In this document: one piece after another, positions 2,070-4,783 of the stretch
Numbering within the stretch: the stretch's first letter is position 1
Layout of the letters: every line of letters starts with the position of its first letter
NCBI GenBank assembly: GCA_023248995.1
Contig: JAHFDN010000019.1
Span: forward strand, 1-60,007
From: Candidatus Rokuibacteriota bacterium
Lineage (GTDB): Bacteria > Methylomirabilota > Methylomirabilia > Rokubacteriales > CSP1-6
Direction of reading: 5' to 3'
DNA length: 60,007 nucleotides
Made by a program: the position numbers and the translations under genes
Notes under the pieces: model-generated
Databases searched by the model: none
What the model was told of the DNA's origin: nothing
The model's input: the letters and a program-made list of their open reading frames with translations, nothing else

Positions 2070-3182
2070 TCAATGTGGCAGGGCCTTCCTGCAGACCCAC
2101 CAGCCCGGAGAGACCTCTTCGGCGCTGAGGCCAGCGGCCTCAATCTCCGCCCTGACCTGGGCGGCGCCGTCGAAATCGTGGAAGAAGCATGGCTCGCGGG
2201 GGTCGCTGGCTTTGGTGACATCGCGCATGTAGCCATCGCCCGCCTCGGAGAGGCGCCAGGGCCCTGACAGCCTTGTTCCCGCGCGGCGCAGGAGATCCAC
2301 GAGGCGGCTCCGGGAGACCAGCCCTCTCTTGCCGCGGTAGATCACCAGCAGGACCAGCAGACCGTCGGCCGTTAGCGCGCGCATGATCCGCCCGAGCGTC
2401 TGCACGCGGAGAGCGCGGCCGGGGACGTGATGGTAGGACGCGGCCCAGTAGGCGCCGTCGAAGGAGCCGGGCGGCGCGTCGAGCTCCGTGGCGCTCTGAA
2501 CCCTGAAGGTGATGTCGAGGCCTTCCCGGAGGGCGTGGGCACGAGCCAGCTCGATCATCCGGGGGGCTACGTCGATCCCCACGACCCGGAATCCGGCACG
2601 GGCCAAGCCGAGGGCCTCCCGGCCGGCGCCGCAGCCGATGTCCAGGATCCGGCCACCAGGCTTGACGTGCCGCTCGACGATCTCCCGCTCGAGGGGATCG
2701 AGGCCCGTGGGGGCAAGCCTCGCGTACTCCCGGGCCTCACCCTCCCGATCGTACTTGTCTCTCACCCCTGCCAGGCACGTCTGGGCGCTCCCCAGATAGA
2801 GCGACGGCGTCAAGGGATGCCGGAGCCTTCCGAGCACTTCGAGCGCGGCGAGCGCCCGGGGAAGCCAGGAGGGCGGCACGCGGGCGAGGAGCCCCTGATC
2901 CAGCGAGAAGGACACGCCCCCGCGCTCCACAGCGACGACCCGGCCCACAACTTCCCCGGCGGCGTCCGCCGTGGCAAGGCGGAAGGCGCCGCCGGCTCGG
3001 GAGAGGACTAGCTGGCCGGAGCGCCCACGCCCCGTGCCGGGCGGAGCGACGTGGATCACCTGACCGTCTCCGAAGGGAGCGGCGGCCTCCAGCAGCTTGA
3101 GGCGCGAAGTTCGAGCGGCGAGCGCCCGCCAGTTCCTCTCCGTGAGCTCCTCGCCCAGATCGAGGAGCACGAAGCGCGTCAT
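2070..3182 (-). CDS. Class I SAM-dependent methyltransferase with N-terminal peptidase-like remnant
   Basis: 370 residues. The C-terminal part (about 165-300) is a class I methyltransferase: the motif I glycine loop ILDIGCGAGREAL is followed by the acidic VVGIDVAPRM. The substrate is unknown. The first 150 residues are not methyltransferase. They contain GQVIHVAP, SGQLVLSRAGG and GEVVGRVVAVERGG, which resemble the beta-strands of S24/S26 peptidases, but without the SMxP serine motif. I infer a degenerate peptidase-like domain fused to the enzyme. The start ATG overlaps the stop of the PqqD-like gene (ATGA), which makes translational coupling likely. It is the last gene of a three-gene set. 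Confidence 0.8.
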   Translation of the reverse strand: MTRFVLLDLGEELTERNWRALAARTSRLKLLEAAAPFGDGQVIHVAPPGTGRGRSGQLVLSRAGGAFRLATADAAGEVVGRVVAVERGGVSFSLDQGLLARVPPSWLPRALAALEVLGRLRHPLTPSLYLGSAQTCLAGVRDKYDREGEAREYARLAPTGLDPLEREIVERHVKPGGRILDIGCGAGREALGLARAGFRVVGIDVAPRMIELARAHALREGLDITFRVQSATELDAPPGSFDGAYWAASYHHVPGRALRVQTLGRIMRALTADGLLVLLVIYRGKRGLVSRSRLVDLLRRAGTRLSGPWRLSEAGDGYMRDVTKASDPREPCFFHDFDGAAQVRAEIEAAGLSAEEVSPGWWVCRKALPH

Positions 3183-3442
3183 GAGACGCGCGTCACGAGG
3201 CTCTTGGCGAGAAGCTCCCGGACGAAGTCCCCCACGTCCCTCACCGCCGCCTCCTGGCTCACGTCGAACTCCAGGACGATGACCCCGACGATGTCGTCCA
3301 CGCTGCGCTGCCCGTCGATCAGCTCCCAGACCCGGCTCCCGACCGGGTTGAGCCCGCGCAGGATCTTCGTGTCCAGGGAGAGGATCACCGCCTCTCCCTC
3401 GATGACCCGCGACGCGGTCGCCGGGGCTTTGCTGACGATCAC
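3179..3442 (-). CDS. PqqD-family (RRE-like) small protein
   Basis: 87 residues, starting at a GTG that overlaps the upstream stop (GTGA) and ending in an ATGA overlap with the methyltransferase. The sequence has the PqqD pattern: a beta-rich N-terminal part (VIEGEAVILSLDT), then LNPVGSRVWELIDGQRSVDDI and a helical tail EAAVRDVGDFVRELLAKSLV. PqqD-like domains bind leader peptides in RiPP pathways, but many free-standing members sit beside S24/S26 peptidases, kinases or polysaccharide genes with no known peptide. No radical SAM gene and no obvious precursor peptide is seen here, so the substrate stays open. The GTG start is chosen for the overlap and for domain length. Confidence 0.82.
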   Translation of the reverse strand: MIVSKAPATASRVIEGEAVILSLDTKILRGLNPVGSRVWELIDGQRSVDDIVGVIVLEFDVSQEAAVRDVGDFVRELLAKSLVTRVS

Positions 3443-3951
3443 CGCAGGAGGAGCCTCGCGAGGTAGAAGGGGAGCCGGAGGGCCTTCCACGCGAGGCGCG
3501 AGAGGACCGGCGGCCTCGCCTCCCGGGAGCCTTCGCGGCAGAGGCGGCATGCGAGGAAGGCGAGCCCGCCCAGAAGGCGATTGACGAAGGGCCACGGGAA
3601 GACCTCGAGATCCACGAGCCGTCCCCCCGGCCGGCGAAGCGCCGCGACCCGGGCGACCACCTGGTCCCACGGGAGAGGGGCATCAGGGGAGACGAGGGCG
3701 TCTCCCTTCGCCACCACCCCGGCCCCGTCGCGGGCCAGGACGCGATGGATGACGAGTCGGGCGTCCCGCCGGTAGGCGATCAGCATCCCCGGAACGACCT
3801 GCTCGGGCTCGACGGGCGCGAGGCGAATCTCATCGCCCGGGCGGATCAGCGGCAGCATGCTGAGCGAGGCTTCCCGCACCCAGAGGGCGCCCTCTCGGGC
3901 CAGCACGTCGGGGGCGAAGGCAACGGCGAGATCCCTCCGAGCGGAGGGCAT
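3439..3951 (-). CDS. S24/S26-family (signal peptidase I-like) serine peptidase
   Basis: 170 residues. Residues 28-42 read REASLSMLPLIRPGD, the SMxP...GD serine motif of S26 signal peptidases and S24 LexA-type peptidases. VIHRVLARD and VVAKGDAL follow, the second carrying the likely catalytic lysine. The protein is short and has no N-terminal membrane anchor. The C terminus has a hydrophobic stretch (NRLLGGLAFLACRLC) that may associate with the membrane. It opens the overlapping set peptidase, PqqD-like, methyltransferase, so maturation or export of a peptide is an attractive but unproven role. It follows the cytidylate kinase-like gene by 4 bases. Confidence 0.78.
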   Translation of the reverse strand: MPSARRDLAVAFAPDVLAREGALWVREASLSMLPLIRPGDEIRLAPVEPEQVVPGMLIAYRRDARLVIHRVLARDGAGVVAKGDALVSPDAPLPWDQVVARVAALRRPGGRLVDLEVFPWPFVNRLLGGLAFLACRLCREGSREARPPVLSRLAWKALRLPFYLARLLLR

Positions 3952-3955
3952 CGGG

Positions 3956-4783
3956 TCACACCACGAACGGCGGGATCGGCGGAATCTCCAGCTGCTGGGT
4001 CTTCACCTCGCGCACGCCCCGAACCGAGCGCGCTACCAGGGCGGCCTCGTCCATGGCCGCCGTGCCCGCCAGGGTCACGACCCCGCGCTGCGCCTCCACC
4101 GTGATCTGGTACTTGCGCGTATCCGGGCTCGTCGCGAGGGCCACCTGCACCTGGGAGGCCAGCGCCCGGTCGGCGACGATCTGCCGGCCCGCGTCGGTAG
4201 TGGCGAAGTCGGCGCGGCCCGCGGACGCCGCGATCAGCTCCACCCCCGCCTCGATGGACATCTTTTCCGTGTTGATGACCAGGTCGTACAGGCTGGGATC
4301 GTTGAGGTCCGCTTCGTACAGGTAGCGCATCCGGCCCGACTTCTCCCTGTCATCCCGCCTGACCATGTCGGTGACGGTCCGGGGGTTCACCCCCTCGCTC
4401 ATCTGGCCCGCCAGCTTCTTGCCGATGCGCTTGACGCGCAGCTCGAAGGGCGCGATCACGCGGAGGCGGCACACGTGGGGAATGCCGCGGAGGAGCCACT
4501 GGCCCCCGCGCCCCATCAGCACGATGTTGTCCTGCTCGGCGAACTCGTAGAGCGCGGTCTGGATGACCGTGATGATGCGGCGGGTCTCGGTGTCGAAGCG
4601 CTCGAAGAGCGTCGGCCTGCTCTCGTCCAGGTGGGTGAGCTTCTCCTCGAGGAGCCCGTACCGCTGCGCCGCGTCGGAGATCAGCTCCTGATCCACATAG
4701 CGGTAGCCGAGGCGCTGGGCGACGACCATGCCGATCTCAGGCCCGCCCGCCCCCATTTCGTGCGAGATGGTCACGATGGCCAT
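3956..4783 (-). CDS. Cytidylate kinase-like protein with C-terminal BON domain
   Basis: 275 residues. The N-terminal 190 residues match the cytidylate kinase-like family: start MAIVTISHEMGAGGPEIG in place of a classical P-loop, then YVDQELISDAA, IVLMGRGGQWLL, a long arginine-rich lid (RVKRIGKK...DMVRRDDREKSG) and YDLVINTEKMSIE. Residues about 200-270 look like a BON domain (ASQVQVALATSP, ITVEAQRGVVTLAG, VRGVREVKTQQLEI). BON domains usually bind membranes or lipids in secreted proteins, so joining one to a cytoplasmic-looking nucleotide kinase is unusual. Four bases separate it from the peptidase-like gene, so it is probably in the same transcript. The true phosphate acceptor is unknown. Confidence 0.8.
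   Translation of the reverse strand: MAIVTISHEMGAGGPEIGMVVAQRLGYRYVDQELISDAAQRYGLLEEKLTHLDESRPTLFERFDTETRRIITVIQTALYEFAEQDNIVLMGRGGQWLLRGIPHVCRLRVIAPFELRVKRIGKKLAGQMSEGVNPRTVTDMVRRDDREKSGRMRYLYEADLNDPSLYDLVINTEKMSIEAGVELIAASAGRADFATTDAGRQIVADRALASQVQVALATSPDTRKYQITVEAQRGVVTLAGTAAMDEAALVARSVRGVREVKTQQLEIPPIPPFVV

Follow-up and report, generated by a model that had tools for sequence, protein, structure and literature searches.

The operon at positions 2070–3951 of the window, which is the entire 60,007-nucleotide contig G000:C51 of a Candidatus Rokuibacteriota bacterium, encodes an S26-type peptidase, a PqqD-family protein and a class I SAM methyltransferase (MTase). Residues ~26–97 of the MTase descend from an S26 peptidase, as profile comparison and predicted strand order show, and are catalytically dead; they are referred to below as the pseudo-S26 domain. 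The trio probably belongs, as its proximal part, to a RiPP-type cluster that works through an RRE. In this cluster the S26 peptidase would remove the leader and the pseudo-S26 domain would dock the precursor on the MTase; the product of the cluster is probably a chemically modified small peptide. An earlier note on this DNA had described the three genes as an operon holding one active and one degenerate copy of the peptidase fold. That observation is confirmed, and its interpretation is supported and extended: the trio appears to be the front of a RiPP-type cluster, not an isolated set.

The three-gene operon

The window ends within the gene that follows the MTase. The features of the operon and of this neighbouring gene are listed below.

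3439..3951, minus strand: S26 (SEC11/archaeal signal-peptidase-like) peptidase, 170 aa; Ser31 (SMLP), His69 (HRV), Gly83-Asp84
3179..3442, minus strand: PqqD-family (RiPP recognition element) protein, 87 aa, GTG start; PF05402, E 3e-16
2070..3182, minus strand: class I SAM MTase with predicted N-terminal pseudo-S26 domain, 370 aa; PF13649
2892..3107, minus strand: predicted pseudo-S26 domain, MTase residues ~26–97, from hhalign and strand order
2361..2648, minus strand: SAM-binding Methyltransf_25 domain, MTase residues 179–274; PF13649
1..1953, minus strand: truncated secreted protein with a signal peptide and three ~200-aa repeats, cut by the contig end

The three genes do overlap as the earlier note had described, but by four nucleotides (GTGA at 3442–3439 between S26 and PqqD, ATGA at 3182–3179 between PqqD and MTase) rather than by one codon each. 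Gene order and 4-nt overlaps are kept in all seven loci that carry the three together (G000, G072, G073, G050, G075, G074 and G047), while the genes upstream vary; the trio is thus not one of genes that rarely meet, which would have spoken against the idea. When the N-terminal 176 residues of the MTase were used as query in 95 same-phylum genomes, five clear relatives, a truncated one and a divergent one were found, and the S26 peptidase query led to the same contigs. Scanning the genome contigs with the whole MTase returned generic MTases only and was uninformative. Weak N-terminal matches in G045, G068:C194 and G069 were rejected as MTase relatives, as the MTase profile finds at most a SAM domain there. 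Five bases upstream of the S26 gene, a gene at 3956–4783 encodes a cytidylate-kinase-like domain (PF13189) fused to a BON domain; it was placed outside the system because it adjoins the S26 gene in G000, G072 and G073 only.

The product of 3439..3951 is an S26 peptidase of the SEC11/archaeal branch, with the SMxP serine, the HR histidine, the Gly-Asp pair and the same fold. It matches TIGR02228 with an E value of 1.6e-9, which lies under the family cut-off, and a homologue in locus L096 scores above the PF10502 cut-off (26.4 vs 22.9). The catalytic Ser, His and Gly-Asp positions are kept in 15–16 of 16 cluster homologues. The nearest solved structures are SEC11A/C (E ~1e-8), and the AF2 model (pLDDT 85) gives VIA Z values of 9.1 (SipA) and 9.0 (E. 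coli signal peptidase). The PqqD protein scores 59.9 bits against PF05402, for which the cut-off is 23.4, and belongs to a family whose members bind RiPP leaders (PMC7470986).

The predicted pseudo-S26 domain of the methyltransferase

The C-terminal part of the MTase matches PF13649 (E 7.5e-20, 71.9 bits), and its SAM motif LDIGCGAGREA is conserved. A Foldseek search with the AF2 model of the whole protein returned class I MTases and was silent on the N-terminal domain because its matches are filled by MTases. Among the top structural matches are the RiPP MTases CypM (cypemycin) and CgnL (crocagin), in which no pseudo-peptidase domain has been reported; the likeness is a generic one of class I MTase fold and does not imply a target.

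In the alignment, residues 76–89 of the MTase (GEVVGRVVAVERGG) fall on the final long S26 strand (DQVVARVAALRRPGG), and N-terminal to GEVVGRVVAVERGG there is no SMxP serine, so that the peptidase strand motifs without the serine, as first read from the sequence, are borne out. An hhalign comparison of the MTase N-terminal domain alone (8 sequences, A4) with 16 cluster S26 proteins (A3) gave a probability of 96.2, an E value of 2.7e-9 and a score of 57.1 over 93 columns. By comparison, the highest scores were 21.8 among 400 column shuffles and 19.4 among the cluster's other protein families, and the reversed profile reached 13.0; when G066, the most informative sequence, was left out, the score was still 50.5. 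The match is also seen from both sides: the S26 profile matches the N terminus of the G066 MTase (E 9e-6), and the MTase profile matches several S26 proteins at its positions ~20–122. A blind query of 347 Acidobacteriota genomes with the pseudo-S26 domain returned S26/S24-type peptidases; in the 12 loci read, the SMxP-type region was present in every one and the His-Arg and Gly-Asp motifs in nearly all. A sequence search of the PDB with the MTase N terminus gave nothing reliable (best E 0.03).

The strands predicted by AF2 agree. They lie at residues 23–26, 41–45, 57–62, 65–74, (78–82), 98–106 and 112–114 of the S26 peptidase, and at 26–30, 42–46, 58–63, 66–71, 77–87 and 90–93 of the MTase, in the same register and order. 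The catalytic Ser and Gly-Asp are missing from the MTase domains: the serine position is occupied by E, D, A or P, the Gly-Asp (KGDA) segment is deleted or reads ARDEPS, and the catalytic histidine is found in G072 and G073 only. By these residues the domain shares a homologous fold with S26 enzymes but is not a peptidase. The degenerate copy proposed earlier is therefore upheld by the controlled profile comparison, the strand order and the blind Acidobacteriota query, and S26 homology is found where an unrelated fold would have told against it; the extent proposed, residues 1–150, has to be narrowed to ~26–97.

The pseudo-S26 domain scores 58.5 with the S26 proteins of other cluster types vs 37.3 with the S26 peptidase of its own operon, and is therefore not a fresh duplicate of the latter. 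The fused form was seen in the window's own family only. No match at 1e-4 was obtained in 264 Myxococcota genomes, a negative that proves little because the set contained no positive control. In three Acidobacteriota loci (L153, L156 and L159), frames of 364–444 aa apparently combine an S26-type domain, its SMAP intact, with a GNAT-like acetyltransferase at the C terminus, which would be a second instance of the fold on a group-transfer enzyme.

The precursor peptide and the cluster in relatives

In those relatives whose contigs extend further, the MTase gene is followed by genes for a secreted PQQ-type propeller, a small secreted protein, an ORF of 53–57 aa, an HprK-like P-loop protein, a radical SAM/SPASM protein with an intact CxxxCxxC and an NTP_transf_5 protein. 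The short ORF, a candidate precursor, is conserved in six same-phylum relatives, beside the radical SAM, kinase and nucleotidyltransferase genes; that of G074 reads MDSEQAGRSEQAGAPTRRSYEPPRITFEEDFQPYAFSTCGKMAGQGGICNVHRNS. It features YxxP, two core Cys, an A-x-A/S site resembling those of signal peptidases just before the first of these and usually a C-terminal Ser, and four of the precursors share an invariant CGKM.GQG..C and the final Ser. Scanning the 95 genomes with a profile of these four ORFs found further precursors, several of them on contigs independently matched by the S26 query; precursor types beyond the profile were read by eye. A short leader/core ORF beside modifying enzymes, the arrangement of a RiPP cluster, is thus present in L034–L037, L085, L086 and other relatives. 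The "unrecognised peptide" that had been proposed as the target finds a counterpart in this ORF of the relatives' clusters and is absent from the window, where the contig ends first. The conserved short ORFs and radical SAM genes looked for in the neighbourhood do occur in those clusters, and kinase and nucleotidyltransferase genes occur with them.

Among 45 precursors, a strict A-x-[AS] stands before the first core Cys in 29 (mean of 2000 shuffles 2.2, maximum 9) and a looser A-x-A-like site in all 45 (shuffle mean 15.7, maximum 27), a statistic inflated by common ancestry among the precursors and by the use, for finding most of them, of a profile containing the motif. The C-terminal residue is Ser in 35 of the 45, at a Ser frequency of 9%. 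None of seven precursors scanned against NCBIfam and none of three scanned against Pfam had a match, and the motif search did not find a precursor in G066. Same-phylum clusters with the same enzymes also encode a third precursor type, YxxPxlxxvxLxxEqAvLxxCk with at least three Cys (L098 7895–8092, L099 3854–4051, L101 1124–1324, L102 5521–5769 and L097 7573–7740).

Gene content varies among the clusters. In G067 the peptide directly follows the MTase, L036 has no propeller match, and the two halves of the G047 cluster lie on two contigs (L038 and L086). Full sets of S26, PqqD, HprK, radical SAM and precursor genes also occur in Acidobacteriota. In Myxococcota, S26 and radical SAM genes are present in 8/8 loci fetched around precursor matches. 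Three Acidobacteriota loci with similar enzymes contained no recognised S26 gene, and their peptide lacks A-L-A/A-F-S and CGK. Queries of the window's own assembly for precursor, radical SAM and HprK genes found none, and neither did those of G072 for precursor and HprK genes; loss and missing assembly are inseparable in the two because both contigs end here.

The product of 1..1953 matches the profile of propeller proteins of 735–870 aa and occupies the slot after the MTase, as in the relatives; the DNA repeats of its gene are spaced ~600 nt. The large secreted protein after the fused MTase (L034 13296–15503, L035 10819–13128, L037 7386–9998) has a C-terminal PQQ-type beta-propeller in the relatives, and the window copy shows the ~200-aa repeats before the contig end. 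The small secreted protein has ~160 aa and no Pfam match. In most clusters its gene immediately precedes that of the precursor (L036 13067–13555, L037 6894–7370), and it is also encoded in some Acidobacteriota clusters in which no S26 gene was recognised (L125, L130 and L134).

A proposed pathway and its alternatives

In lasso clusters, PqqD-type B1 proteins recognise the YxxP of the leader. In the proposed pathway, the PqqD protein would bind the YxxP leader and present the 53–57 aa precursor to the radical SAM/SPASM enzyme, which would modify the two-Cys core (CGK..GQGG..C); its likely target is the pair of Cys on either side of GK..GQGG. The HprK-like kinase would phosphorylate the C-terminal Ser, and the NTP_transf_5 enzyme may extend this phosphate. 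Such chemistry is known from lasso precursors, whose C-terminal Ser is phosphorylated by HPr-kinase homologues, and from pseudomycoidin, in which a nucleotidyltransferase adds hexoses to the Ser phosphate (PMC8498205). Leader removal would fall to the S26 peptidase, cutting at the A-x-A/S site that abuts the first core Cys; with the S26 gene adjacent, this is the simplest reading. The pseudo-S26 domain would hold the precursor by this same stretch around the cleavage site, in extended form, and set a neighbouring group in the MTase active site. This pathway assigns no step to the propeller or the small secreted protein.

The docking role of the pseudo-S26 domain is judged about as probable as all its rivals together; the KGDA strand has been lost, and a working peptide cleft is therefore not assured. 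It is possible, though we would not expect it, that within the same RiPP-type cluster the domain instead pairs with the active S26 peptidase and couples methylation to leader removal without itself binding the precursor. The MTase shares a translationally coupled operon with an intact S26 homologue of its N-terminal domain, the missing KGDA belongs to the substrate site, and the S26/S24 fold tends to dimerise, as in LexA and UmuD of the S24 family; however, the better fit of the domain to the S26 proteins of other cluster types speaks against a recent copy kept as a partner. It is rather improbable that the S26 peptidase matures the propeller or the small secreted protein while another protease removes the precursor leader. 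S26 enzymes normally act on secreted proteins, and two of these accompany the cluster in many loci, but the S26 gene is at most ~130 nt from the precursor in five Myxococcota loci (L166–L169 and L172), the eight Myxococcota loci gave no propeller or small-secreted-protein match, and AXA-like sites stand at the core Cys of the precursors. Least probable is a structural relic without a role on a general housekeeping MTase: related MTases without the domain do adjoin other cluster types, but domain and operon order are kept across eight genomes, down to 38% identity (G066), where a useless extension of ~100 residues should decay.

Returning to docking and leader removal by the S26 fold, we tentatively propose an uncharacterised RiPP class. 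Its members, from three phyla or more, would have their leader removed by an S26 relative, and one lineage would have reused the dead fold as a precursor-docking domain of its MTase. On this proposal, the predicted product would be a radical-SAM-modified, methylated peptide with a phosphate, perhaps phosphoglycosylated, on its C-terminal Ser.

Several known systems share parts of this set. Sactipeptides and ranthipeptides are marked by Cys thioether cross-links made by radical SAM/SPASM enzymes, with which the two core Cys and the SPASM enzyme are compatible. Kinase- and nucleotidyltransferase-tailored lasso peptides (paeninodin and pseudomycoidin) have in common with it a PqqD-family leader binder, an HPr-kinase homologue, a nucleotidyltransferase and, on the precursor, a YxxP-type leader and a C-terminal Ser (PMC8498205). 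The B2 transglutaminase-like protease and the Asn-synthetase-like C cyclase of lasso clusters have no room in the complete, compact clusters L036 and L096, which are tiled by other families, with radical SAM/SPASM and S26 genes instead. SynChlorMet (ScmC, ScmD, ScmE/F) and GeoRSP likewise join HprK-like, PqqD and radical SAM/SPASM proteins in one cassette, and their profiles match weakly (ScmC 1.6e-11, ScmD 2.6e-10, GeoRSP_rSAM 4.9e-36), far below the NCBIfam cut-offs (44 vs 125, 40 vs 100 and 125 vs 400 bits). In contrast to these cassettes, there is usually one radical SAM enzyme here, an S26 peptidase and NTP_transf_5 are added, and none of the seven precursors scanned has an NCBIfam match. 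SipA, which acts in pilus assembly in Streptococcus pyogenes, is a signal-peptidase fold without catalytic residues whose peptide cleft is intact, proposed to bind peptide without cutting it (PMC4049620); it is free-standing and membrane-anchored, whereas the dead fold here is fused to an MTase in a putative peptide-maturation operon.

In the open-licence literature, this gene combination was not found described, including the pseudo-peptidase–methyltransferase fusion. A text search of a 2023 review of RiPP leader-peptide proteases found no S26 or signal peptidases (PMC10885120), so an S26 leader peptidase, if true, would be an added RiPP protease type, with a cut site both simple and predictable. 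Recruitment of a peptidase fold for substrate docking on an MTase would, if true, illustrate an origin of peptide readers that do not depend on an RRE. The precursor profile makes a widespread and apparently unnamed peptide family searchable.

One further gene of this cluster kind is an apparent pseudo-enzyme. In G066 (L039 4466–5152), a second HprK-like gene has lost its P-loop, with MPPDRGEAT where GPSGSGKT is expected, and directly precedes the intact HprK gene.
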